Shown: piece by piece, positions 2,240-12,855 of the stretch | Position numbering within the stretch: the first letter of the stretch is position 1 | Layout of the letters: each line of letters opens with the position of its first letter | DNA from: Vibrio sp. YMD68 | Lineage (GTDB): Bacteria; Pseudomonadota; Gammaproteobacteria; Enterobacterales; Vibrionaceae | NCBI RefSeq assembly: GCF_029958905.1 | Contig: NZ_CP124613.1 | Coordinates: 310,001 to 374,000 of the forward strand | DNA length: 64,000 nt | Reading direction: 5' to 3' | The notes under the pieces: generated by a model | Told to the model about the DNA's origin: nothing | What the model saw: only the letters and a program-made list of their open reading frames with translations | The model's database searches: none | Position numbers and translations under genes: made by a program

Positions 2240-2761
2240 TTATTGCTTTTCTATATACAGTATTATCTCACCGACATTAATGCCCCACTTCGACATATCG
2301 GTTTTGTTAAACAGTCGCTTTTCGTCTATTAGGAACATCCAATCGTCTAGGGTGATTTGATAAGTGGTCCCATCAACGGGAATCTCTAGGTCGTATTGCC
2401 AATACAAGGCAGCGCCTTCTGTTCTACCTGTTGCTGTGCCTACCACATCTTCAGCCGTCCCTTCATACTGGTTATTACCAATGTTTTTGAGCTGCCAATT
2501 GCGAGTCGACTTCTCACCGTCATCAAACTCAAACCATTCTTTTATCTCTCCAGTATCACCTTGCCAAGAGGCGATCAGTTTGACTTCAAATCGACGTAAC
2601 AAATTACCTGAACGATCCAAAACCATGCCGTAGGCGACAAGTTCACCATCAAAAAATTGCTCTAACTTGAGCTCAGGAAAGGTATCTTTATGCTTGTCTA
2701 ACGTTGCATTTCCGCATGCGCTTAACATTATGGTCAGCGCCAAAATGACGATTTTTTTCAT
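2240..2761 (-). CDS. DUF3833 family lipoprotein
   Basis: A 173-residue protein beginning with a lipoprotein signal (MKKIVILALTIMLSAC; lipobox LSAC with Cys16), so it is probably anchored in the envelope. The rest is beta-rich with alternating strands (FDGELVAYGMVLDRSGNLLRRF), matching DUF3833, which resembles a lipocalin-like barrel. Function unknown. Its ATG overlaps the stop of the preceding chalcone-isomerase-like gene by 4 nt, and it is the last gene of the ChrR operon. In this context a role in handling modified or oxidised lipids is plausible but unproven. Confidence 0.85.
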   Translation of the reverse strand: MKKIVILALTIMLSACGNATLDKHKDTFPELKLEQFFDGELVAYGMVLDRSGNLLRRFEVKLIASWQGDTGEIKEWFEFDDGEKSTRNWQLKNIGNNQYEGTAEDVVGTATGRTEGAALYWQYDLEIPVDGTTYQITLDDWMFLIDEKRLFNKTDMSKWGINVGEIILYIEKQ

Positions 2762-3261
2762 CTGTTTAATCCCAGTAATTGACGGCGAAGCTCTGGCTCA
2801 GAGGTTTTTTCCGACAGCCATATCGAGAGAAATGCAGTCCCAAAGCTTTCTGAGCCTATGGTGCCTATGAGCTCATTATTGAAGTAAAATTCGCTACGTC
2901 CATCTTCTTCAAGCAGCAGAGTCAAGGTGTTGCCTGGTTCAACGTTTGGCCAAAGGTTTTCTAACGATGCTGCCCATTGCTCAATGTCATTAGCGTCATA
3001 ATTTAAGTGCTGCCATTGCTCTATGGTGGCTTGAATAAGCGCTTTGCTTTCTATTGATTTCAGATATTCAATCTTGAGTGCTTGCCTATTTTTATCGGGC
3101 TCACCTGTACTAGTGTGCTGGCCCGAGTAGTATTCAGCTTCGTATATTGTCCAGAACAGGTAACTCATCTCTCCGGTTCCAACTTTGCTGAGATCTCTAA
3201 TAGGCGACGCTGAAACAGTACTGCTGATCAGCAGAAAACATAAACAAAACCATTTATACAT
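2758..3261 (-). CDS. Chalcone-isomerase-like exported protein
   Basis: 167 residues with a cleavable signal peptide (hydrophobic WFCLCFLLISSTVSA, cleavage near residue 18). The body has features of the bacterial chalcone isomerase-like domain, including YLFWTIYEAEYYSG near the N-terminus and the C-terminal NNELIGTIGSESFGTAFLSIWL segment. Bacterial members probably bind fatty acids or similar hydrophobic ligands rather than catalyse flavonoid cyclisation. It sits 3 nt after the DUF2878 gene and overlaps the DUF3833 lipoprotein, so three envelope-directed products are made together at the operon's end. Ligand unknown. Confidence 0.85.
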   Translation of the reverse strand: MYKWFCLCFLLISSTVSASPIRDLSKVGTGEMSYLFWTIYEAEYYSGQHTSTGEPDKNRQALKIEYLKSIESKALIQATIEQWQHLNYDANDIEQWAASLENLWPNVEPGNTLTLLLEEDGRSEFYFNNELIGTIGSESFGTAFLSIWLSEKTSEPELRRQLLGLNR

Positions 3262-3264
3262 AAA

Positions 3265-3774
3265 TCACCCCGTTACTGGTTCACATGTCGGTCGTTCTAT
3301 TTTCCTTCTTAGAATGACAAAGGTGGGCATCAATATTGCCCAGACCAACATTAACGACAATATGACTTGGTGCGTAGGCAGCAGTGGTTCAATCACGCCT
3401 GCTTTTACTCCTCCCCAGTAACTGGCGGTTCCACCTAGGGCGCCAATGACAGCAAGTGGCAGTGAGGAAAACCGATTCAACCAACTTAAGCTATGATTCA
3501 GGCTGATGATGAACATGATCCAAATCAGCAGAAGCCACATAGGGAAGAATTCGCTACCAACGGAAAAGACACCGAAATGCAATTGAAGTTTGTCTGCGGC
3601 TAATCCTATAGGGACCAGTAGCAATAAATTCAGGTCTTTCTTTTTGGTTGGCGAGAGTAAAAAATGGACCACCAACAGCCCGGCCATGAGGGGCCCTGCA
3701 TGTTGGTTTAAGAACGCTGCACAAAACCAACTGGCCTGGAAAATAACCAGATTAATAATCCAGAATCGCTGCAT
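3265..3774 (-). CDS. DUF2878 family inner-membrane protein
   Basis: 169 residues with about five hydrophobic helices (for example WIINLVIFQASWFCAAFL, MWLLLIWIMFIISL, VILSLMLVWAILMPTFVIL). This matches DUF2878 membrane proteins, which repeatedly lie beside cyclopropane-fatty-acid-synthase-like genes in photolyase/ChrR clusters. No catalytic motif is visible. Its start overlaps the 3' end of the upstream methyltransferase by 23 nt, strong evidence for translational coupling. Confidence 0.85.
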   Translation of the reverse strand: MQRFWIINLVIFQASWFCAAFLNQHAGPLMAGLLVVHFLLSPTKKKDLNLLLLVPIGLAADKLQLHFGVFSVGSEFFPMWLLLIWIMFIISLNHSLSWLNRFSSLPLAVIGALGGTASYWGGVKAGVIEPLLPTHQVILSLMLVWAILMPTFVILRRKIERPTCEPVTG

Positions 3775-5032
3775 CGCTGTGTCCTCTGTATCGTGGCTTT
3801 CTTGCTACGACATGGTGGGTACTGATCACTCGTTGTAAGAATGCGCCTTCGCAGTAGCACAAGTAAAAAGTCCACAACCGTTTGAACTCTTCGTTATAAC
3901 CAAGCTCAACCAATTGAGGCCAAGATTGTTCAAATCGCTGACGCCAATCATGGAGCGTGCGAGCGTAATGAAGGCCAATATCATGCAACTCATGGGTCAC
4001 TAAATCGGTACAGTTGGCCATCTGTTGCGTCATGATCGACACGGATGGTAAACAACCACCTGGGAATATGTATTTTTGAATGAAATCGACATTTTTGCGG
4101 TAACGATCGTAACGGCTGTCGGCTATCGTAATGGATTGAATTAACATCTTTCCATCGGGTTTTAGCAAGTCGGAACACTTTTTGAAAAATGTTGGCAAGT
4201 ACTCATGACCCACCGCTTCAATCATTTCGACAGACACTAATTTATCGTACTGACCGTTCAGCTTTCTGTAGTCGCTTTTGAGTAGAGTAATTTTGTCTTC
4301 TAAGCCGAGTTGTGAGATTTTCTGCTCTGCGTATTCATGCTGAGCATCGGAGATAGTGGTGGTGGTCACATGGCATCCGAAATGCTGTGCCATGTAGATC
4401 GCTAGACCACCCCAACCTGTGCCTATTTCTACTACGTGGTCGGTTTCTTTGAGTTCCAGTCTTTCACAGATTGTTTGCATTTTTAGTTGTTGCGCATCAT
4501 CTAAAGTCGTTGCGTTTGAACCATACACAGCACAAGAATACTGCATAGCAGGGTCTAAAAATCGAGTGTAGAGCTCGTTGCCAATATCATAGTGAGCGAG
4601 AATGTTTCGTTTGGATCCATCTTCAGAGTTGGCATTTTTAAAACGTAGGAACTGTTTCTTTATCTTGCTGACCCATTGGACTTTGTTTTCAATTTTGTCT
4701 AACTGGTCTTGGTTGATAGCCATCACTTGAATGAGGTTGGTTAGGTTCGGGCTCGTCCACTTTCCATCGATGTAGGCTTCTGCTGCACCAATGCCACCGT
4801 TTAGTACCATATTTTTGTAGAAAGAGGCGTCGTGTATCACAATGGTCGCATGCAGAGATGATGCTTGATCACCAAACCGTGTACGTTCATCCCCGTCAAC
4901 AATTTCTAGGCTCGCGTGGTTGATATGAGTCAGTAGAGAAAATATCAACGTTTTGTATTTATTGGTTGAACGACTTTCAACATTGTCGTTACTGTAAGCT
5001 AAGCCTTGAGCTTGTTTCGCAGATTGTTCCAT
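3752..5032 (-). CDS. Cyclopropane-fatty-acyl-phospholipid synthase-like SAM methyltransferase
   Basis: Transfers a methylene or methyl group from S-adenosylmethionine to unsaturated acyl chains of phospholipids at the inner membrane. The SAM-binding motif VVEIGTGWGGLAIYMA, the YDIGNELY segment, the catalytic-region Cys (MQYSCAVY) and the C-terminal YLCYCEGAF are all present, and about 426 residues fits the longer bacterial subgroup. I prefer the ATG at 5032 (GAGG 6 nt upstream) to the one at 5059, which lacks a good ribosome site. In Rhodobacter sphaeroides, CfaA and furan-fatty-acid enzymes belong to the RpoE/ChrR regulon; the exact product here, cyclopropane or methylated/furan acyl chain, is open. 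Confidence 0.92.
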   Translation of the reverse strand: MEQSAKQAQGLAYSNDNVESRSTNKYKTLIFSLLTHINHASLEIVDGDERTRFGDQASSLHATIVIHDASFYKNMVLNGGIGAAEAYIDGKWTSPNLTNLIQVMAINQDQLDKIENKVQWVSKIKKQFLRFKNANSEDGSKRNILAHYDIGNELYTRFLDPAMQYSCAVYGSNATTLDDAQQLKMQTICERLELKETDHVVEIGTGWGGLAIYMAQHFGCHVTTTTISDAQHEYAEQKISQLGLEDKITLLKSDYRKLNGQYDKLVSVEMIEAVGHEYLPTFFKKCSDLLKPDGKMLIQSITIADSRYDRYRKNVDFIQKYIFPGGCLPSVSIMTQQMANCTDLVTHELHDIGLHYARTLHDWRQRFEQSWPQLVELGYNEEFKRLWTFYLCYCEGAFLQRVISTHHVVARKPRYRGHSDAAILDY

Positions 5033-5100
5033 GTGAACCTCACTTGAGAAAACGGTCATTATTTTTGTCAGTTATATTTTGCTTGAAACGTTTATTGTTG

Positions 5101-5835
5101 CTATGTCTGAGTATCGGGATGCGGGACGAAAGGAACCCGCTTCAAAAACAACTTAAGAGCTTGCCAATAAATACCTGAGACGATTTTTAATGTCATCATA
5201 GGTATAGAACGAACCGTCTTTCCGATCTCTTTGGCACTGAATTCGTGTTTCTTTAGCGCTAAAGTCGCATCAAAAACTTTGTCTTTTTTGTGGTTTTCGA
5301 TATGAACTAATGTGTTCTTACTTGGTGGCGTAATTGTCCAGTGATAGTCCATATCCATGTCCATAAAAGGTGAAACGTGAAAGTCTTTTTTAACCTTCAT
5401 TTCTGACGACATCTTTATTAAGTAGTAGTGGCGTTTGTTCCATGGCGTGTTACTTACTTCAGCAAGTAAGTACTCGCACTCGCCAGAGTCTGCGTAGCAG
5501 AAGTAACAATTAATCGGGCTAAAATACAAACCGACACAGCGAGCTTGTGCAAGTAATACCACTCTATTTCCAGCAGACCAGCTTCCACCTAACTGCTCTA
5601 CTTTATTACTTATACGTTGCTTGAGTTCCCCTGGTTCATTTTTTAAGTAATCTTTTTCATTGAAACGAATGGGGTTATACCACCGCTCACCAAACAGCCA
5701 GCTCTTTTGGACTAAAGCGGGCAACTCATCAAGGTCGATACTTAGCATATACAGCTGGTAGTTGAATTCGTGCTTCACCGCCCCTAAGCGGCGATGACGC
5801 ACGTTTCCCCAATAGATGCCGCTGTTCTGTGTCAT
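5101..5835 (-). CDS. DUF1365 family protein
   Basis: 244 residues matching DUF1365: N-terminal [22 protein letters not shown], a central [15 protein letters not shown] and [10 protein letters not shown], then [15 protein letters not shown]. No enzyme activity is established for the family, but it is consistently encoded between an FAD oxidoreductase and a cyclopropane-synthase-like gene. It overlaps the preceding oxidoreductase by 4 nt, so the two are probably coupled. Likely cytoplasmic or membrane-peripheral; substrate presumed to be an acyl chain by context only. Confidence 0.88.
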
Positions 5836-7085
5836 AGTGTTTGGCCGAATCGTTGCGTAACATCTAGCGCGCTTTTTACGCCATCTTCATGAAAGCCGTT
5901 GTACCAGTATGCGCCAACAAAATGGAAACCATTCTGTCCGCAAATGGTTGATCGTAGGTTTTGTGCTTTAACGCTGGATGCATCTAATACTGGGTGATGA
6001 TAGACAAAACTTCGAATCACTTTCTCTGGATTTATGGCTTCAGTTTGATTGAGGGTGACACAGAAAGTGTCGTCACTTTGAATGCCTTGCAAGATATTCA
6101 TGTTGTAAGTGACGCATGATGGTCGAGATAAATCGCCATCAAGCATGTAATTCCAACTCGCCCAAGCCAGTTTTCTATCTGGAAGTAAGCGGGTATCGGT
6201 GTGGAGTACGACTTCATTGCGGCTATACGGAATACCAGAAAGTACCTTTGTTTCTTGTTCTGTGGGCTGTGCGAGTAGTTTTAACGCTTGGTCTGAGTGG
6301 CAAGCAAAGATGACGTCATCAAAGGCGTGCGACTCACCGGTCTCCATTGTCACAACCGCCTGCCCATCGATACGACTGACGTGTTTAATGTCCGCGTTAG
6401 TGATGATGGCCTTGCTTAATGTTGACTGAATCGCTTGAACGTACTCTCGTGAACCACCAGGTACCACATACCATTGAGGTCGGTCGACGATATTCAGTAG
6501 CCCGTGGTGATAAAAGAACTGAATAAAGAATTTGAGTTCAAATTTTTCCATCTCTTCAAGGCTGGTCGACCAAATGGCAGCGCCCATCGGTAGAATGTAG
6601 TGCTGGCTGAAAAATGAAGAGAATCCGTTGTCTTTTAAGAATTCACCTAACGAAGACTGGCTTTGTATATTATTCTCTCTAAACGCTTTCTTACACAGGT
6701 TGTTGAACTTAATAATCTCATAAATTAAACGCCAGAATTTGGGCTTAAGTATGTTGCTTCTTTGGGCAAACAGCGCGTTAATTCCGTGGCCGTTGTATTC
6801 AAACTTGGTTTGTCGGTTGTGAACACTGAAGCTCATTTCCGTCTTTTGCTGTTTTATCCCTAGTTGTGTTAATAGCTCAATGAAGTTTGGGTAGGTTCTG
6901 TTGTTGAAAACGATAAACCCGGTATCAACCGTGTATTCTTTCCCTTGATGCTCAATATCTACTGTGGCGGTGTGTCCACCGACATAATCATTTTTTTCGA
7001 ACACAGTGACATCGTTCTTTTTATCGAGTAAATAAGCACAGGTTAGGCCGGAAATTCCCGATCCAATAATCGCTATCCTTTTCAT
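5832..7085 (-). CDS. FAD-dependent oxidoreductase (amine-oxidase/desaturase fold)
   Basis: 417 residues. The N-terminal Rossmann motif [17 protein letters not shown] binds FAD, followed by [15 protein letters not shown] typical of the flavin-containing amine oxidase/protoporphyrinogen oxidase/phytoene desaturase superfamily; [14 protein letters not shown] near the C-terminus is the usual FAD-closing motif. Members linked to DUF1365 and cyclopropane synthase are thought to oxidise or desaturate an acyl chain, but the reaction is not proved. Only 2 nt separate it from the upstream SDR gene. Confidence 0.9.
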
Positions 7086-7087
7086 AA

Positions 7088-7804
7088 TTATCCCATTTTA
7101 GTCGCAATTCGGTTCCAAAGTGATGAAGGTAAAAAGCGTAAACATTTCATCATAAATATAAACAGGGTGGGGAAGCTGATGTCAGCTTTCCCTTTCTCTA
7201 TGCCATCAATAATTTTATGTGCAGCCTCTTGTGTTGAGACGATCATTGGCATAGGGAATGTGTTTTTGTCAGTGAGTGGAGTTTTGACAAAACCAGGATG
7301 AACAACAGTGACATTGATATCGTGTTGGGCCAGGTGCGCAGACAACGTTTTGCCTAAGTACGTCACGGCCGCTTTAGAGGATCCATACGCTTCAGCTCTC
7401 GGCAGTGGCAGAAGGCCCGCGCTTGAACTCACCAGCACCAGTCGACCTCCTGACTGAAGTGATTTGAGCCACGTTTGAAGCCCATAGCCAATAGAAACGA
7501 GATTGATATTGATGATCCGTTCGAATTTTTTTGCATCAAAGTTGAGTGGGTCATCAATATATTCACAGTCACCAGCATTAAAAATGAGCAGATCTAATGC
7601 TCCCCATACGCTCTGGTCACTTGGGTAGTTATTATAATCGGTTAAATCGAAGCAAAGCGGCTGTATGTTAGGGCGTTGTTGCTTGAGCGCATTGAGCTTC
7701 TCTTGGCTTCTGCCACAGGCGATCACGTCATGCCCTGCCTGAGCGTAGCTCAGTGCGAGCTCTTTGCCTATTCCTGAAGTCGCCCCCGTGATTAATATAC
7801 GCAT
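7088..7804 (-). CDS. Short-chain dehydrogenase/reductase
   Basis: 238 residues of classical SDR type. The NAD(P)-binding GATSGIGKEL lies at residues 6-15, NAG is in LLIFNAGD, catalytic Ser in LVLVSSSAG and catalytic YGSSK (YxxxK) around residue 140; VVHPGFVKTPL follows. The last roughly 30 residues are hydrophobic (FPTLFIFMMKCLRFL) and could touch the membrane. It reduces or oxidises an unknown carbonyl/alcohol. Its start overlaps the stop of the SnoaL-like gene by one base and it precedes the FAD oxidoreductase by 2 nt, so the three are co-translated. Confidence 0.9.
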   Translation of the reverse strand: MRILITGATSGIGKELALSYAQAGHDVIACGRSQEKLNALKQQRPNIQPLCFDLTDYNNYPSDQSVWGALDLLIFNAGDCEYIDDPLNFDAKKFERIININLVSIGYGLQTWLKSLQSGGRLVLVSSSAGLLPLPRAEAYGSSKAAVTYLGKTLSAHLAQHDINVTVVHPGFVKTPLTDKNTFPMPMIVSTQEAAHKIIDGIEKGKADISFPTLFIFMMKCLRFLPSSLWNRIATKMG

Positions 7805-8235
7805 TATTTTCCCGCCCTATGTTTTAACTTTTTCACTACCGGACCTAACAGGGGCACGTGTTCATAAATCATCGCACCAATGTCTAAGTAGTCTCGGTGG
7901 AAGGTCACTGCATCGTTCTCTGCTTTCAAGTGAGAGTGTCCCTGGACAGATATAGGCTCTTGTTTATTTAAGCTTTTGTGGCGAAATGTCATGGTCCAAT
8001 ATACGGCGGCTTCAGACTCTGATTCAAAGGCATGCTTTATGTGAAATTCACAACTTATGATGTTGGTGTAGCTTCGCTCGAAACTGGCTATCAGGTCTTG
8101 CACACCTTCAACTTTGTGTAGGGGGTCAATAAAAACCACGTTCGGGTGATAAATACTCGCAAGAGTCGAAAGGTTGTCTGTTCCTAACTCACGGTATACA
8201 TCGATGAATTTTTGTAACCATAATGAGCGCTGCAT
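7804..8235 (-). CDS. SnoaL-like / NTF2-fold protein
   Basis: 143 residues with the NTF2-like pattern: an N-terminal helix (FIDVYRELGTDNLSTLASIYHPNVVFIDPLH) and then beta-rich sequence with HIKHAFESESEAAVYWTMTF. Such proteins act as small isomerases/hydrolases or as carrier/assembly partners; this one is unassigned. It is encoded 43 nt after the photolyase and overlaps the SDR by 1 nt. Homologues commonly occupy the same position in cyclopropane-synthase gene sets. Confidence 0.85.
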   Translation of the reverse strand: MQRSLWLQKFIDVYRELGTDNLSTLASIYHPNVVFIDPLHKVEGVQDLIASFERSYTNIISCEFHIKHAFESESEAAVYWTMTFRHKSLNKQEPISVQGHSHLKAENDAVTFHRDYLDIGAMIYEHVPLLGPVVKKLKHRAGK

Positions 8236-8278
8236 ACTGTTCTGCCTTACTGTTGTTTGCCGCTAGGCATTGAAGAAC

Positions 8279-9703
8279 TTAACCTGTCAGCAAATGATGT
8301 TGTTTGAAAAAATCGAGTGCCCTTTGTCTCGCATCTTTGTGGTCAACTATCGGAGAGCAATACGTATCTCGAATACCATTTACCTCCAAATATTGGTGAG
8401 GGAAATGAATGTCTTTGTTAGGAATATTGTTCAATTCTGGTAGATACTTACGGATGAAATCGCCATTTGGATCAAACTTTTTACTCTGCGTGATGGGATT
8501 AAAAATTCTAAAGTAGGGTTGAGCATCGCAGCCTGTGCTCGCAGCCCATTGCCAGCCGCCGTTATTAGCGCTGAGGTCACCATCAATTAATTTAGAAATG
8601 AAATATTTTTCGCCCTGCCTCCAATCGATCAACAAGTGTTTGGTTAAAAAACTGGCCACGACCATTCTGAGACGATTGTGCATCCAGCCAGTGGTGTTTA
8701 ACTGCTTCATTGCCGCATCCACCAAAGGGTAGCCTGTTCTGCCTTCACACCAGGCTAAAAAGAGCGAGTGATTGGGTTGCCACACCATGCCCTTGTATTT
8801 GTCCTGGAAGCTTTCACCTTTTGCTAGGTTGGGAAAGTGAAATAAAAGATGTTTATAAAAATCACGCCAAATGAGTTCGTTGAGCCAACTGAAAGCGGGT
8901 AGGTTGGTGTCGTGAACAATATCCGGGTGATGTTGAATCAACTGAATGGCGAGCCATCGTGGGCTAATGGCCCCAATAGCGAGATAAGGAGACAGGCCAG
9001 AGGTCCCTTTTATTCCGGGGTAATCGCGGTTCTGTTCGTAATCGTTCAGCTTAGTCTCGAAAAATCGTGGTATCACAGACTGCATCACCGTATCACTCAG
9101 AGGCCAGCGGGATGAGTCGACCTTAGGGTAATCAAGAACAATACTATTACTTGTTTGGGTTGATGCGAATTCAGGATCCAACGGGTTAGTCGATGACAGA
9201 GGGATCTCACTGAAACCAATGCCGGTCAGTTGCACGCGCTTTAGCCATGCGTTCTTAAACGGGGTAAACACTTTGAACATGGTCTCTTGCTTATTGAGTA
9301 CCGTGCCTACAGGTAAAATGGTATCGCAATGGAAGATTTTTAATTCAATATGTGGGTGTTTGAAACTTTGGTCTCGTTCAAGTTCATTGATCTCTGGCTC
9401 ACTGTTTGCGCACACAACATCAATACCCTGTTCTTCACAATATGAAGTGAGGGCGTCAATTTGCGAACGGTAATCGGTAGAGGGTAGGTGGATCAAAGTT
9501 AACCCTAGCTTTGCTAAAGGCTCGGCTAGGGCGTTGAGGTGTCTTTCAATAAAGTCAGATTGTATCGGGGCCAAGTTATGCTGTTCCCACTGAAGTGGTG
9601 TCGAGATATAAACAGCGGTTTTGGCCCCCAGTTTTATTGCTTCGCAAAGAGCAGGATTATCATGAATACGTAGGTCTCTTCTGATCCAAAGTAATGCGCT
9701 CAA
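8279..9703 (-). CDS. phr: Deoxyribodipyrimidine photolyase (class I CPD)
   Basis: Repairs cyclobutane pyrimidine dimers using blue/near-UV light. The N-terminal antenna domain begins SALLWIRRDLRIHDNPAL. The C-terminal FAD/DNA-binding domain shows EGRTGYPLVDAAMKQL, TGWMHNRLRMVVASFLTK, DGDLSANNGGWQWAA and YFRIFNPITQ, all characteristic; 474 residues is full length. The start overlaps the stop of the RudS-like gene by 4 nt. Photolyase is also a core member of the ChrR regulon in Rhodobacter, so induction by singlet oxygen/light via the nearby sigma factor is expected. Confidence 0.96.
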   Translation of the reverse strand: MSALLWIRRDLRIHDNPALCEAIKLGAKTAVYISTPLQWEQHNLAPIQSDFIERHLNALAEPLAKLGLTLIHLPSTDYRSQIDALTSYCEEQGIDVVCANSEPEINELERDQSFKHPHIELKIFHCDTILPVGTVLNKQETMFKVFTPFKNAWLKRVQLTGIGFSEIPLSSTNPLDPEFASTQTSNSIVLDYPKVDSSRWPLSDTVMQSVIPRFFETKLNDYEQNRDYPGIKGTSGLSPYLAIGAISPRWLAIQLIQHHPDIVHDTNLPAFSWLNELIWRDFYKHLLFHFPNLAKGESFQDKYKGMVWQPNHSLFLAWCEGRTGYPLVDAAMKQLNTTGWMHNRLRMVVASFLTKHLLIDWRQGEKYFISKLIDGDLSANNGGWQWAASTGCDAQPYFRIFNPITQSKKFDPNGDFIRKYLPELNNIPNKDIHFPHQYLEVNGIRDTYCSPIVDHKDARQRALDFFKQHHLLTG

Positions 9704-10644
9704 TATCCATACCTCAAGCGAAGTTCTTTAGGGTGTGGATCCAAATACACTTGACTCGCCAGGTACTCATTCGGGTACTCGAGCAAATAGTGTTTTATCA
9801 AGGTGACAGGCACAAGCAGTGGTGTTAATCCCTGGCGATAAGCTTCAATTTCATCACTGAGTTCTTTGCGCTTTTCTTTATTCAATTGTTTCTTAAAGTA
9901 CCCTTGCAAGTGCTGCAACGTGTTGGTGTGGCTCTTGCGGGTTGCTTTAATGGTCAACGCTTCCATCAGCATTGCAATGTATTGGTCTGCAACCGTTTCG
10001 ATAGGGTCTTGCGGATCAGCCAGAAGGCGGCCGAGTGCTTTATAGCTTTCAATGTTATGACTCATCAGTAAGTATTTGTGGTTACTGTGGAAGGTGATGA
10101 GTTTGTGGAGCGTTATTTTGCTTTCTTTCAGATCTAACCATTTCTGATAGGTGAAAATGCGCGTAATAAAGTTTTCGCGAATCACAGGATCGTTCAAGCG
10201 CCCATTCTCTTCACAAGGCAATAATGGGTTATTTTTCATTATTTGCTTAGAAAATAGACCGACGCCTGTCATCTCTGAACCTTTGCCATCTTCTTGATAA
10301 ACCTTGACTCTTTCCATGCCACAGCTTGGACTTTTGGCACAAAAGATAAACCCGGATAAATCCTGAGACTGCTTCGCATGTGCGATACCAAATTCAGTTA
10401 ACGCTTCAGTGACATCACTTGTACCATCAGGTCTTGAAACGGTAATGACGTCGCCTTTAGAGATTTGTCTGATCGTTGGACGAGGAATGGGCAACCCTAC
10501 GGCAACTTCAGGGCAAACGGGCTTAAAATCTGCAAACTCACTGAGCTCTTCCATGCAAAAGTAAGAGCGTTTGTGGCTTTTGTCGTAACGAACTTCTTGT
10601 CCTGTTACGCAAGCACTAATGCCAATTTGTAATTTTTTCATCAT
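9700..10644 (-). CDS. rudS: DUF523-DUF1722 protein, RudS-type tRNA 4-thiouridine desulfidase
   Basis: 314 residues (or 313 from the second ATG, which is better spaced from AAGGA). The N-terminal DUF523/TudS-like domain (residues 6-155) has Cys12 (ISACVTG), Cys44 (PVCPEV) and Cys108 (SPSCGM), positions expected to hold a [4Fe-4S] cluster, plus Cys102. The C-terminal DUF1722 domain (about 185-305) starts near HKLITFHSNHKYLLMSHN. The two-domain architecture is that of RudS, reported to remove sulfur from 4-thiouridine in tRNA. 4-thiouridine is the near-UV chromophore of bacterial tRNA and a source of reactive oxygen, so linkage to photolyase and ChrR is coherent. Function is from family knowledge; the induction model is inference. 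Confidence 0.88.
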   Translation of the reverse strand: MMKKLQIGISACVTGQEVRYDKSHKRSYFCMEELSEFADFKPVCPEVAVGLPIPRPTIRQISKGDVITVSRPDGTSDVTEALTEFGIAHAKQSQDLSGFIFCAKSPSCGMERVKVYQEDGKGSEMTGVGLFSKQIMKNNPLLPCEENGRLNDPVIRENFITRIFTYQKWLDLKESKITLHKLITFHSNHKYLLMSHNIESYKALGRLLADPQDPIETVADQYIAMLMEALTIKATRKSHTNTLQHLQGYFKKQLNKEKRKELSDEIEAYRQGLTPLLVPVTLIKHYLLEYPNEYLASQVYLDPHPKELRLRYGY

Positions 10645-10686
10645 ACTGTCCTTGAAAAACGCCTTTGAGAAAAATGGGGGCGCTTA

Positions 10687-11457
10687 CTAGTAAATGAGCT
10701 TTCCTAGTGGGTTAAAGAGTTGGCTAACCCCTTGAGTGAAATGTAACGAATCACTCGATACAGTTAAGCACACGCAGCCATCTTGTGTTGCGGGTGTGTG
10801 AGTATTTTTTCCATCTAACCAGATGAAGTCCCCCGCATGGTAGGTATCCATTTCATCTTTAAAGCTGCCTTGAAGTAACAAGGTGATTTCAAAGCCTTTA
10901 TGGGTATGAGAAGGAACGTGTCCACCTTTATCGATATGCAGTAGGCTAGTACGTCGCTTGTCATCGTCAAGATTTAATCGAGCCCTTGATATCTTGCCAA
11001 GCCCTTGCCATTCATTCAAAGAAAGAGAGCGAATAGCGTTCGGTAATGAGACTCGAGTCCCAGACACGTCTATCTCAGTGACGGTTGTTGGCATTGACGT
11101 TTGTTGAGCCTGAGGGGTATCGGTGATGCCTTGAATTAAATCGATTACCGATGATTGTTGCTCAGGCAAGTATTCATCGTCGAACCCTTGGTGGTTACTT
11201 TCAAAGTTACCGCTTTTGAAAAGGTTATTTTCTGACGGTTCACCTTGTGACCATTCACCCTCTGACCATTCACTTTCTGACCATGGGTCACTCATGCCAA
11301 ATGCACTCATGGCCGCATTTTCAGTCAGTTTTGCGACTTTTTCTTGGCATTTTTGACACATTTCCACATGGCTAGAGACGATAACAGCAACAGAAGCCAC
11401 CATTTTTCCCGATACAAACTCTTCTAACAGAGCATCACTTGGGTGGTATTTAATCAT
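10687..11457 (-). CDS. chrR: ChrR-family zinc anti-sigma factor with expanded linker
   Basis: 256 residues. The N-terminal zinc anti-sigma domain has His5, His30, Cys34 and Cys37 (SHVEMCQKC), which hold Zn and sequester the sigma factor. The C-terminal cupin (about 140-256) keeps the metal ligands His184, His186, Glu190 and His220, and a CVC pair at 228-230, the part needed for singlet-oxygen sensing in R. sphaeroides ChrR. The linker (about 52-125) is unusually long and acidic, with a repeated WSE(S/G)E pattern, making the protein about 40 residues longer than the roughly 213-residue Rhodobacter protein. It overlaps the sigma gene by 8 nt, the standard arrangement for 1:1 production. Confidence 0.93.
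   Translation of the reverse strand: MIKYHPSDALLEEFVSGKMVASVAVIVSSHVEMCQKCQEKVAKLTENAAMSAFGMSDPWSESEWSEGEWSQGEPSENNLFKSGNFESNHQGFDDEYLPEQQSSVIDLIQGITDTPQAQQTSMPTTVTEIDVSGTRVSLPNAIRSLSLNEWQGLGKISRARLNLDDDKRRTSLLHIDKGGHVPSHTHKGFEITLLLQGSFKDEMDTYHAGDFIWLDGKNTHTPATQDGCVCLTVSSDSLHFTQGVSQLFNPLGKLIY
11231..11290 (-). repeat. 15-bp minisatellite inside the chrR linker
   Basis: Four tandem 15-bp units start at 11231, 11246, 11261 and 11276 (plus-strand core TCTGACCATTCAC). Being a multiple of three, the array encodes a repeating five-residue acidic/Trp motif and can change length without frameshift. The two middle units are nearly identical, and the flanking ones are diverged. Confidence 0.8.
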
Positions 11458-12085
11458 AATGTTGATCTCCCATCTTCTGTCTGATTTTCTCTAGCGCAAG
11501 TCGCAAACGTGACTTTATGGTGCCAATGGGTACCCCTAACTGCTGCGCTAATTGTTCTTGTGATAATTCTTGAAAGTAAACCGCTTTGAGCACGACTCTT
11601 TGAGCATCTGGCAATTCATCAACCAGTCTTTTAATTCGGTTGTCCATTAAGTGGTCAGAAAAAGGCGGTGATTCTACCTCTCTCTCGCTAGACTCTTGCT
11701 CCAATGGCCAGATATCATCGCCCAAATTTTGAGCCGCATTGTTTTTATTTTTTCTGAGCTGATCAAAGGAAGCGTTTCTCATGACGGTGTAAACCCAAGT
11801 TGTGGCAGCGCCTTTGGATTTATCGTATAGGTGTGCTTTTTTCCACACATTGGTCATGGTGTCTTGTACGAGTTCGTTGGCTTGTTGTTCATCTCTATAT
11901 TGCTTTATTCCAAAACGTTTTATTTTTGGCGCAAAGAATTCGAATAACTGAGTAAAAGCCTCTTTATCTTGATTTTGAGCGACCGAAGCTAGGTGCAATG
12001 ACAAATCTTCGTGGGCTGTTGAACTAGGCTTAGTAATTGGGTTTCCTCCCCGTTTATGTTCGGAACTCCCTTCAATACGATGCAT
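11450..12085 (-). CDS. ECF11-type (RpoE/ChrR-system) sigma factor
   Basis: 211 residues. Region 2 runs from about 40 to 115 (ELVQDTMTNVWKKAHLYD, then TTWVYTVMRNASFDQLRK for -10 recognition and melting) and region 4 from about 150 to 205 (ELPDAQRVVLKAVYFQELSQ, helix-turn-helix IGTIKSRLRLALEKIRQ). Adjacency to ChrR identifies the singlet-oxygen ECF11 class, not the envelope-stress RpoE that pairs with RseA. The N-terminal 30 residues are an extension relative to Rhodobacter RpoE (about 180 aa). AAGGG lies about 9 nt upstream of the ATG. A promoter it should recognise sits 36-61 bp upstream, consistent with autoregulation. Confidence 0.94.
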   Translation of the reverse strand: MHRIEGSSEHKRGGNPITKPSSTAHEDLSLHLASVAQNQDKEAFTQLFEFFAPKIKRFGIKQYRDEQQANELVQDTMTNVWKKAHLYDKSKGAATTWVYTVMRNASFDQLRKNKNNAAQNLGDDIWPLEQESSEREVESPPFSDHLMDNRIKRLVDELPDAQRVVLKAVYFQELSQEQLAQQLGVPIGTIKSRLRLALEKIRQKMGDQHYD

Positions 12086-12120
12086 TAGAAATCACCCTTA
12101 CTTAATTATTTACAACACAT

Positions 12121-12146
12121 TACGTTAGGATGAAGTGATAGGATCA
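12121..12146 (-). promoter_or_regulatory. ECF11-type promoter of the sigma-chrR operon
   Basis: Minus strand reads TGATCC, 18 bases, then TA, with CG immediately before the TA (CGTA). This is the element described for R. sphaeroides RpoE (TGATCC-N18-TA). The TGA of the -35-like element is also the stop codon of the LON-domain gene at 12144. The leader to the sigma ATG would be about 30 nt. Confidence 0.8.
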
Positions 12147-12782
12147 CTTTTCTTTTGATTTTCTTTCACACATTGAACTCAGGAGTTCCTTTAGTTGTGT
12201 GAAACTAAGATCGTGAATAAACATTTCTTTCTCTTCCAAAGAGAGAGGAATGATTTCAAGCAAACGAGCACACACCCATTTAGAGTAGCTTAAGTAACGG
12301 GTTTGATATAGAGCAGAGAACTCATTATGGGTGTCGAAGAGACTTTTTAATGTTTTGGACAGCCCAACGACACCGTCAGCCTCAATCGATGTTGTATCTT
12401 GCTCCGAAGACCAGTGCGCAAGTGGTTCAGATTGGGCGATCACAAGGCCATCTTTTTGTGTATCAATATTGACCAACTTCACCATACTTTCCGCTAAAAC
12501 ATCGATGGTTAAGACCCCGTCTTCTCCCATGTCAAAGTTAACGATTTTCACATGGGTTCCCCATCCAGCGACTGAAAATGGATTTTCTTTTTTAAATAGG
12601 CCAATAATAAAACCATCGTTCTGAGTGGCTTGGGACACCATCTTCAGATATTTGGGCTCGAAGATTCTTAGCCGTTGCATCCCACCACTGAGAAGAAAAA
12701 TAGGGAGCGGAAAAACCGGGAGCCAACGTGTCCTTGTTTGCTCTAATTTGGTGCCTTGTTGGGCTAAGCATGAATCGCTCAT
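12144..12782 (-). CDS. LON substrate-binding-domain (LON-N) protein
   Basis: 212 residues consisting of a stand-alone Lon N-terminal domain: WLPVFPLPIFLLSGGMQRLRIFEPKYLKM at the start, then FIIGLFKKENP and the beta-rich VKIVNFDMGEDGVLTIDVLAES. No ATPase or protease domain follows, so it is not Lon protease itself; members probably bind unfolded or modified proteins. It lies directly upstream of the sigma gene and has its own matching ECF11-like promoter, so it is likely an extra regulon member. Role in the light-stress response is inferred. Confidence 0.9.
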   Translation of the reverse strand: MSDSCLAQQGTKLEQTRTRWLPVFPLPIFLLSGGMQRLRIFEPKYLKMVSQATQNDGFIIGLFKKENPFSVAGWGTHVKIVNFDMGEDGVLTIDVLAESMVKLVNIDTQKDGLVIAQSEPLAHWSSEQDTTSIEADGVVGLSKTLKSLFDTHNEFSALYQTRYLSYSKWVCARLLEIIPLSLEEKEMFIHDLSFTQLKELLSSMCERKSKEK

Positions 12783-12829
12783 TAGGGTTCTCCGCGTCCG
12801 TTATTAGTCATTTTTACTTATGCTGATAC

Positions 12830-12855
12830 TACGTCGCTGAGGCGGTGATCGATCA
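12830..12855 (-). promoter_or_regulatory. Second ECF11-type promoter, upstream of the LON-domain gene
   Basis: Minus strand reads TGATCG, 18 bases, then TA, again with CG directly before TA, the same spacing and CGTA end as the element at 12121-12146. It lies 48 bp upstream of the LON-domain ATG. The TGATCGATCA core is itself palindromic. Confidence 0.72.

Follow-up and report, generated by a model that had tools for sequence, protein, structure and literature searches.

A gene row on the minus strand of a 64,000-nucleotide stretch of Vibrio sp. YMD68 DNA (contig NZ_CP124613.1, positions 310,001 to 374,000; the whole stretch is called the window) is likely to form a self-contained photo-oxidative stress unit, in which an extracytoplasmic function (ECF) sigma factor of type ECF11 and its anti-sigma factor ChrR would act through three promoters, P1, P2 and P3, and a furan-lipid product would feed back on ChrR. 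The row is not a chance arrangement, since the same order stands in 28 loci: the window, Vibrio genomosp. F10, another Vibrio, Pseudoalteromonas phenolica and 24 further genomes. We call these loci, in which the regulator pair adjoins its cargo, fused, and those in which the two lie apart split. P3 is a motif whose letters are conserved inside the coding sequence of the photolyase gene; that transcription starts from it is what we infer.

The first-pass annotation had described twelve consecutive minus-strand genes at 2240-12085 as a sigma-ChrR-headed unit joining photorepair, desulfuration of 4-thiouridine in tRNA and lipid modification. All twelve open reading frames (ORFs) are present as described, and the Pfam and NCBIfam assignments and the gene order agree with that description. 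The gaps, given there as at most about 70 bp, are tighter, at -8, 42, -4, 43, -1, 2, -4, 41, -23, 3 and -4 bp from the sigma gene downstream (-23 to +43 bp). Beyond that annotation we found three ECF11-type promoter motifs and a thirteenth gene, encoding a LON substrate-binding domain only, which heads the row 58 bp upstream of the sigma gene. A terminator-like hairpin closes the row. With P3 inside the photolyase gene, the row is probably not one simple transcript. As for regulation being split by an internal promoter, such a motif is indeed present, but P3 would serve the same sigma factor and would therefore reinforce rather than split regulation. The features, all on the minus strand, are listed below in the direction of reading; papers given by PMC number are cited here and throughout for the portions of their text that were available.

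12829-12855, minus: P1, ECF11-type promoter motif TGATC-N17-CGTA, lying 46 nt upstream of the LON-domain gene
12144-12782, minus: LON substrate-binding-domain protein, 212 aa, PF02190 as sole Pfam domain
12120-12146, minus: P2, ECF11-type promoter motif TGATC-N17-CGTA that overlaps the stop codon of the LON gene and lies 34 nt upstream of rpoE
11450-12085, minus: ECF sigma factor (rpoE), assigned to ECF11 from its ChrR partner and its promoter motif
10687-11457, minus: ChrR anti-sigma factor, HxxxCxxC plus ChrR cupin, matching 2z2s and 2q1z
9700-10644, minus: RudS, a TudS desulfidase (PF04463) fused to DUF1722 (PF08349)
8279-9703, minus: Phr, class I photolyase by Pfam/NCBIfam, sole PF03441 gene found in the genome
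8448-8474, minus: P3, ECF11-type promoter motif TGATC-N17-CGTA in photolyase codons FDPNGDFIRK, 212 nt before the SnoaL start
7804-8235, minus: SnoaL-like protein (SnoaL_2) by Pfam
7088-7804, minus: short-chain dehydrogenase (SDR) by Pfam/NCBIfam
5832-7085, minus: UfaD-like FAD oxidoreductase or fatty-acyl desaturase, flavin amine-oxidase type by Pfam, role after PMC7380195
5101-5835, minus: UfaO-like DUF1365 protein by Pfam, role after PMC7380195
3752-5059, minus: UfaM-like S-adenosylmethionine methyltransferase, CMAS family, with Gln308 in the place of Cfa His266
3265-3774, minus: DUF2878 protein by Pfam, hydrophobic and probably in the membrane
2758-3261, minus: Chalcone_3 protein by Pfam, signal-peptide-like N terminus
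2240-2761, minus: DUF3833 protein, lipobox-like N terminus with invariant Cys16, predicted barrel
2098-2128, minus: terminator-like hairpin, 12-pair stem plus T tract

The regulator pair appears by sequence to be of the ECF11 sigma/ChrR type, and its activation by singlet oxygen or blue light is predicted. The two genes overlap by 8 bp and both products score above their model cut-offs (NF009178 and TIGR02451), while ChrR combines the HxxxCxxC zinc anti-sigma domain with the ChrR cupin PF12973 and aligns to 2z2s. Residues from about 55 to 125 of ChrR form an acidic, Trp-containing, repetitive linker between the two domains, and many matches to ChrR in the family align only from about residue 100 onward. 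Elsewhere in the genome there is no second ChrR match, PF03441 photolyase or full-length CMAS protein, only a partial CMAS match of 32.6 bits.

The ECF11 promoter consensus reported for Vibrio cholerae, TGATC-N16-18-CGTAW (PMC5241685), matches twice in the window, a count that is weak by itself because at least two matches also occur in 14 of 100 shuffles. With the last base freed, three sites fall on the operon strand within the first 16 kb, all with N17 spacing, before the LON-domain gene, before rpoE and inside the photolyase gene. The position of these motifs is conserved. Among 64 ChrR loci (60 fetched from the 116 ChrR-bearing genomes of the family, three named loci and the window) the motif stands within 250 nt upstream of rpoE in 51, including 28/28 fused loci, where shuffles predict 0.00 loci, and it stands equally close to the LON gene in 53 of the 58 loci that have one (expectation 0.15 loci). 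Such promoters were also reported for SO_1987 and SO_1986 in Shewanella (PMC4336711). In six split loci whose lipid genes lie apart from phr, the motif precedes snoaL in five; the sixth is ChrR-negative.

P3 overlaps the photolyase codons FDPxGxFIRx and lies ahead of the lipid genes. It is present in all 27 fused photolyases and in 42 of 50 split ChrR genomes in which snoaL comes next, and in none of 23 photolyases that snoaL does not follow (20 with ChrR, 3 without); these counts exclude L053, L060, L061, L064, L066-L068, L202 and L245, from which no phr was obtained. One alternative is a single long polycistron read from P1 and P2 only, the photolyase motif being a by-product of the FDPxGxFIR peptide and codon bias. 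The peptide is conserved, the genes overlap or nearly touch, and the homologous Pseudomonas cluster was reported as a likely polycistron (PMC9758184), yet we consider this explanation improbable on the evidence of the codons. The genes' own codon usage predicts 1.5 motif matches among the 18 fused genes that match the regular expression, and 18 are observed; five fused genes that do not match it carry the motif as well. The arginine codon is CGT in 100% of 24 fused genes; in other conserved Arg columns CGT reaches 38% at most.

The history of the codons points the same way. We counted changes on a photolyase tree of 117 rows, from which rows shorter than 400 aa and L193 were dropped, using the 68 ChrR rows with snoaL next (27 fused and 41 split); this set omits L224 and a motif-lacking clade of eight rows from one genus, an omission that biases the count. 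The four bases that the protein leaves free and the motif specifies (the wobble before Asp, those of Asp and Arg, and the first base after Arg) changed 0 times, whereas the free third positions between and after the fixed bases changed 11-17 times each. The Arg codon CGT likewise shows 0 changes, compared with 24-30 in each of nine further invariant Arg columns, and the Asp codon GAT also shows 0, compared with 5-17 in each of eight further invariant Asp columns; in the fused set alone, where no exclusions are needed, the contrast is 0 against 4-7. The residue after Arg may be K, T, R or I, yet its codon always begins with A. Where snoaL does not follow (20 rows), the same four bases changed 2-7 times. 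The wobbles that the motif specifies are thus held, the others are free, and the motif is lost without lipid genes downstream.

It is also improbable that the constraint is real but serves something else, be it recognition by a different sigma factor, a binding site on DNA or RNA, or the translation of the gene that follows. Retention of the motif in 5 of 18 ChrR-negative rows with snoaL next would fit such a function; four of the five keepers (G007, G052, G064 and G076) have matches to the ChrR model below its cut-off that cover the cupin part only, so that an unrecognised relative is possible there. What speaks for the sigma factor is that the fixed bases are those of the V. cholerae consensus TGATC-N16-18-CGTA (PMC5241685), that P3 shares its 17-nt spacing with P1 and P2, and that the unspecified bases vary.

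A wider scan of 295 genomes of the order with a 28-mer pattern gave matches in 68 genomes, and the reversed-pattern control gave 0 among the matches listed. Thirty loci were opened; in 29 the match lies in a photolyase gene, 28 of these with snoaL next, and the P3 photolyases span five families besides that of the window. With furan-lipid genes downstream, P3 appears to be retained in the majority of ChrR-bearing genomes of the family and also in photolyases from no fewer than five other families.

Several observations weigh against reading P3 as a promoter of the ChrR-bound sigma factor. P3 is a consensus match within coding sequence, known from sequence alone. It is missing from nine ChrR-bearing genomes with snoaL next (eight of one genus and one other; the nine are the eight misses among the 50 split genomes above and L111), and these nine have no relaxed motif within 450 nt either. 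It is kept in the five of 18 ChrR-negative rows mentioned above (one of the 18, L193, has no aligned segment), and in the 17 ChrR-negative rows with snoaL next that could be counted the four bases changed 0, 1, 6 and 2 times. The Phe and Asp wobbles are near-fixed in that set too (T in 17/17 and 16/17), so only the Arg wobble and the base after it carry the contrast. An independent-pairs test yielded only four pairs, none contrary, and was not significant. The loci of the order-wide scan were chosen by motif match, irrespective of ChrR.

We give about even weight to a fuller reading, in which the photolyase gene doubles as regulatory DNA, the three-promoter, LitR-free ChrR unit has spread between genera, its lipid feeds back, and the LON-domain protein is a candidate adaptor. 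As part of that joint reading, the embedded P3 would fix synonymous codons and restrict the residues allowed after the arginine. If this is true, codon choice has preserved a promoter within the gene of a conserved enzyme, and the singlet-oxygen response would boost its lipid branch independently of DNA repair, in line with the role reported for that branch in ChrR turnover.

The label "cyclopropane" given to the lipid genes in the first-pass annotation is probably wrong, the genes more likely encoding the furan-fatty-acid pathway UfaD-UfaO-UfaM; this assignment is suggested by the gene order and Gln308, read together with PMC7380195 and PMC12089945. The FAD oxidoreductase, DUF1365 and CMAS-type methylase genes are adjacent in the order ufaD-ufaO-ufaM, which by locus numbers is that of RPA2571-2569 of Rhodopseudomonas palustris (PMC7380195), and UfaM, UfaD and UfaO were reported to make 9M5-furan fatty acid from cis-vaccenate (PMC7380195). 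Furan fatty acids have also been reported from marine Shewanella and Marinomonas (PMC3528120).

That the module instead makes cyclopropane fatty acids with a Cfa-type enzyme, as automatic annotation also has it, is improbable. The methylase does belong to the CMAS family, its best solved match is E. coli Cfa, and homologues are named cyclopropane synthase in the sources. However, it falls below the Cfa equivalog cut-offs of NCBIfam (299.5 bits against 400 for NF008686, and 297.9 against 600 for NF053839), and its Gln308 aligns with His266 of E. coli Cfa, which we take to be the bicarbonate site. Gln occupies this site in 166/166 aligned methylase rows. In loci of other families, Gln is likewise found in the methylase next to ufaD-ufaO wherever there is one (19 of 19; L171 from a broken frame), whereas additional CMAS copies have His in 8/8. 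The Gln marker is our own proposal, with E. coli Cfa rather than the UfaM of R. sphaeroides or R. palustris as its reference. The gene order is that of R. palustris genes proven by expression (PMC7380195); on the other side, cyclic acids were also reported in a ufaM-overexpressing E. coli strain (PMC12089945). The additional His-type copies (L169, L170, L172, L173, L176 and L178-L180) are possibly a further lipid methylase.

The suggestion that the three terminal envelope proteins handle the modified lipid receives modest support for DUF3833, through its lipobox and a predicted ten-strand antiparallel barrel of the calycin or fatty-acid-binding type, and none for the other two.

Together these features suggest how the unit may work. 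ChrR would hold the sigma factor until singlet oxygen or peroxides inactivate ChrR, and the freed sigma factor would drive transcription from P1 (the LON gene) and P2 (rpoE-chrR-rudS-phr onward), with P3 adding output of snoaL-sdr-ufaD-ufaO-ufaM and the three envelope genes. RudS would remove near-UV-sensitive 4-thiouridine from tRNA, Phr would repair dimers, and UfaM-UfaD-UfaO would make furan fatty acids that scavenge singlet oxygen. The same fatty acids may promote ChrR turnover, as reported in Rhodobacter, which would close a positive loop within one locus.

The LON-domain protein is a candidate partner or adaptor in ChrR breakdown. Its gene lies upstream of rpoE-chrR in 58 of the 64 loci, and it is missing from 6 of the 28 fused loci, which counts against the proposed unit. 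DegS and RseP homologues have been implicated in ChrR degradation (PMC3818230), and the proteases for it are listed as a need in PMC6852236; the LON-domain gene, which has a sigma motif of its own, offers a concrete candidate here.

Within the family sample, UfaD is found without ChrR but ChrR is not found without UfaD. Of 150 genomes, 116 have ChrR and 137 have UfaD; UfaD is present in 116/116 ChrR genomes and ChrR in 0/13 UfaD-negative ones (hypergeometric 5e-10, kinship ignored). This family-wide dependence agrees with the role reported in Rhodobacter, where the turnover of ChrR that singlet oxygen induces requires RSP1090 and RSP1091 (PMC3818230, PMC6852236). ChrR and UfaD lie no more than 12 kb apart on the same strand of one contig in 39/150 genomes, and in G022 and G131 they lie close on opposite strands. 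The fused loci make up 28 of the 64 opened and keep the order of the window, some without rudS-phr, LON or tail genes. In two genomes (G124 and G142) the row breaks after ufaO, with ufaM about 16-17 kb away, which tells against the proposed unit; in G142 (L052, 10699-14445) ufaO is followed by a LysR gene, an ORF without family, a kinase and an ABC ATPase. Among 20 of the 54 other UfaD-bearing genomes outside the family, L165 is fused co-directionally, L173 and L183 have rpoE-chrR divergent to the cargo, and L176 has a divergent sigma-like match without ChrR.

The fused layout goes with the absence of a LitR-like MerR regulator within the family. We opened 20 UfaD loci from genomes in which regulator and cargo are split; rudS and phr precede snoaL in 14 of them, and a MerR gene precedes phr in eight of the nine inspected, with Pfam MerR_1 confirmed for two. 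The exception, L122, has rpoE-chrR divergent next to the phr locus and no MerR gene before phr. The label LitR-like rests on gene position, the MerR domain and operator-type boxes. With a one-protein query (E<=1e-20), LitR-like MerR matches occur in 95/150 genomes, in 1/39 fused against 91/96 other UfaD genomes (Fisher 7e-27, kinship ignored; G022 and G131, both without MerR, were set aside). The one fused genome with a match, G008, has a rudS-MerR-phr module elsewhere. A second query, from the genus of the window (E<=1e-8, 49 genomes including all 39 fused), recovered only three positive controls and G008, and neither query found a LitR-like MerR in the Vibrio sp. YMD68 genome at these thresholds. 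TGTACA-N12-TRTACA boxes, of the LitR operator type in PMC9758184, lie upstream of the first gene in 7/20 split loci and the looser TTGTACAA box in 14/20; in the 28 fused loci, the window included, neither type was found between a point 400 nt ahead of rpoE and ufaD.

Trees suggest that the whole unit spread between genera. In a UfaD tree of the family loci and the three named loci (48 rows), the fused rows lie on one side of a single branch (SH-aLRT 99). The window's genus has members on either side of it, and the fused group takes in Pseudoalteromonas phenolica as well as one genome from a different family of the order. The trees were built quickly and have long branches, and some of their results tell against spread as a unit: with the outside rows added (67 rows) the fused group is still one change, at a support of 61, and L166, L167 and L175, loci of other families that are not fused, stand beside it with a joint support of 94; we count on this side also the support of 82 with which the fused rows fall on one side in the sigma tree (66 rows). 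A somewhat unlikely explanation is that the fused layout has several independent origins, or that it is ancient, possibly an old duplication, and has since disappeared from parts of the family. The weak inner branches and the three neighbouring unfused loci would accord with it, as would rpoE-chrR divergent to the cargo in L122, L123, L173 and L183, but the fused rows keep to one side of a branch in both the UfaD and the RpoE tree, with the window's genus on either side.

Some further matches were seen around the unit and in the rest of the genome. An Rfam cspA thermoregulator matches just downstream of the unit (952-1331, minus, 102.9 bits). On contig C2, near 849734 (L008), a perfect ECF11-type motif stands 33 nt before a ferrochelatase-like gene, which parallels a report for the Shewanella hemH2 operon. 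Two contigs of the genome (L006 and L009) share one 26-base motif match and an ORF of equal length and place, and are probably a duplicated element.

The cargo, together with ECF11 control, is already known. It had been put forward as an under-described system, but similar cargo stands under LitR in Pseudomonas (PMC9758184) and under RpoE2 in Shewanella (PMC4336711). The operon SO_3386-SO_3374 of the RpoE2-ChrR regulon of Shewanella oneidensis holds ybgA, phrB and cfa; as in the window, a LON-domain gene is numbered next to the sigma/ChrR pair, and TGATC...CGTA promoters serve rpoE2, the LON gene and the cargo operon (PMC4336711). RpoE2-induced transcripts of chrR, SO_1987 and SO_3386 were seen by reverse-transcription PCR (PMC4336711). 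Unlike in the window, rpoE2-chrR lies at a separate locus, and the available part of PMC4336711 does not mention a promoter inside phr. The light-inducible unit PME6650-6610 of Pseudomonas mendocina joins phrB, SDR, FAD oxidoreductase and UfaM as the window does, but includes a LitR homologue, with LitR repressing a sigma-70 promoter at TGTACA-N12-TGTACA; sigma-E/ChrR is not mentioned in the text available from PMC9758184. RudS as described in PMC11417400 is the same TudS-DUF1722 fusion and occurs in light-responsive operons with photolyases, for which the accessible text mentions LitR but not ChrR. LitR-like and ECF11/ChrR regulators on the same cargo offer a natural comparison of control by "seeing the light" and by "feeling the damage".

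Closer to the regulator, RSP1091-1087 of Rhodobacter sphaeroides adjoin rpoE-chrR, with UfaD and UfaO as ECF11 targets, as proposed for the window (PMC7380195, PMC3818230, PMC6852236), and a positive loop runs through RSP1090/1091 and ChrR turnover (PMC3818230, PMC6852236); homologues of RSP1090/1091 lie mostly near rpoE-chrR (PMC3818230). There, unlike here, the available accounts give two operons, each with its own promoter, and ufaM elsewhere. The blue-light response of V. cholerae through ChrR and MerR, both of which are required, uses the same promoter consensus and induces the CFA-like VC1122 and cry1 (PMC5241685, PMC11976125), but judging from the locus numbers in these accounts its regulator, photolyase and lipid genes lie at separate loci. 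Compared with all of these systems, what is new in the window is its fused layout without LitR and, most of all, the promoter motif conserved within the photolyase gene.

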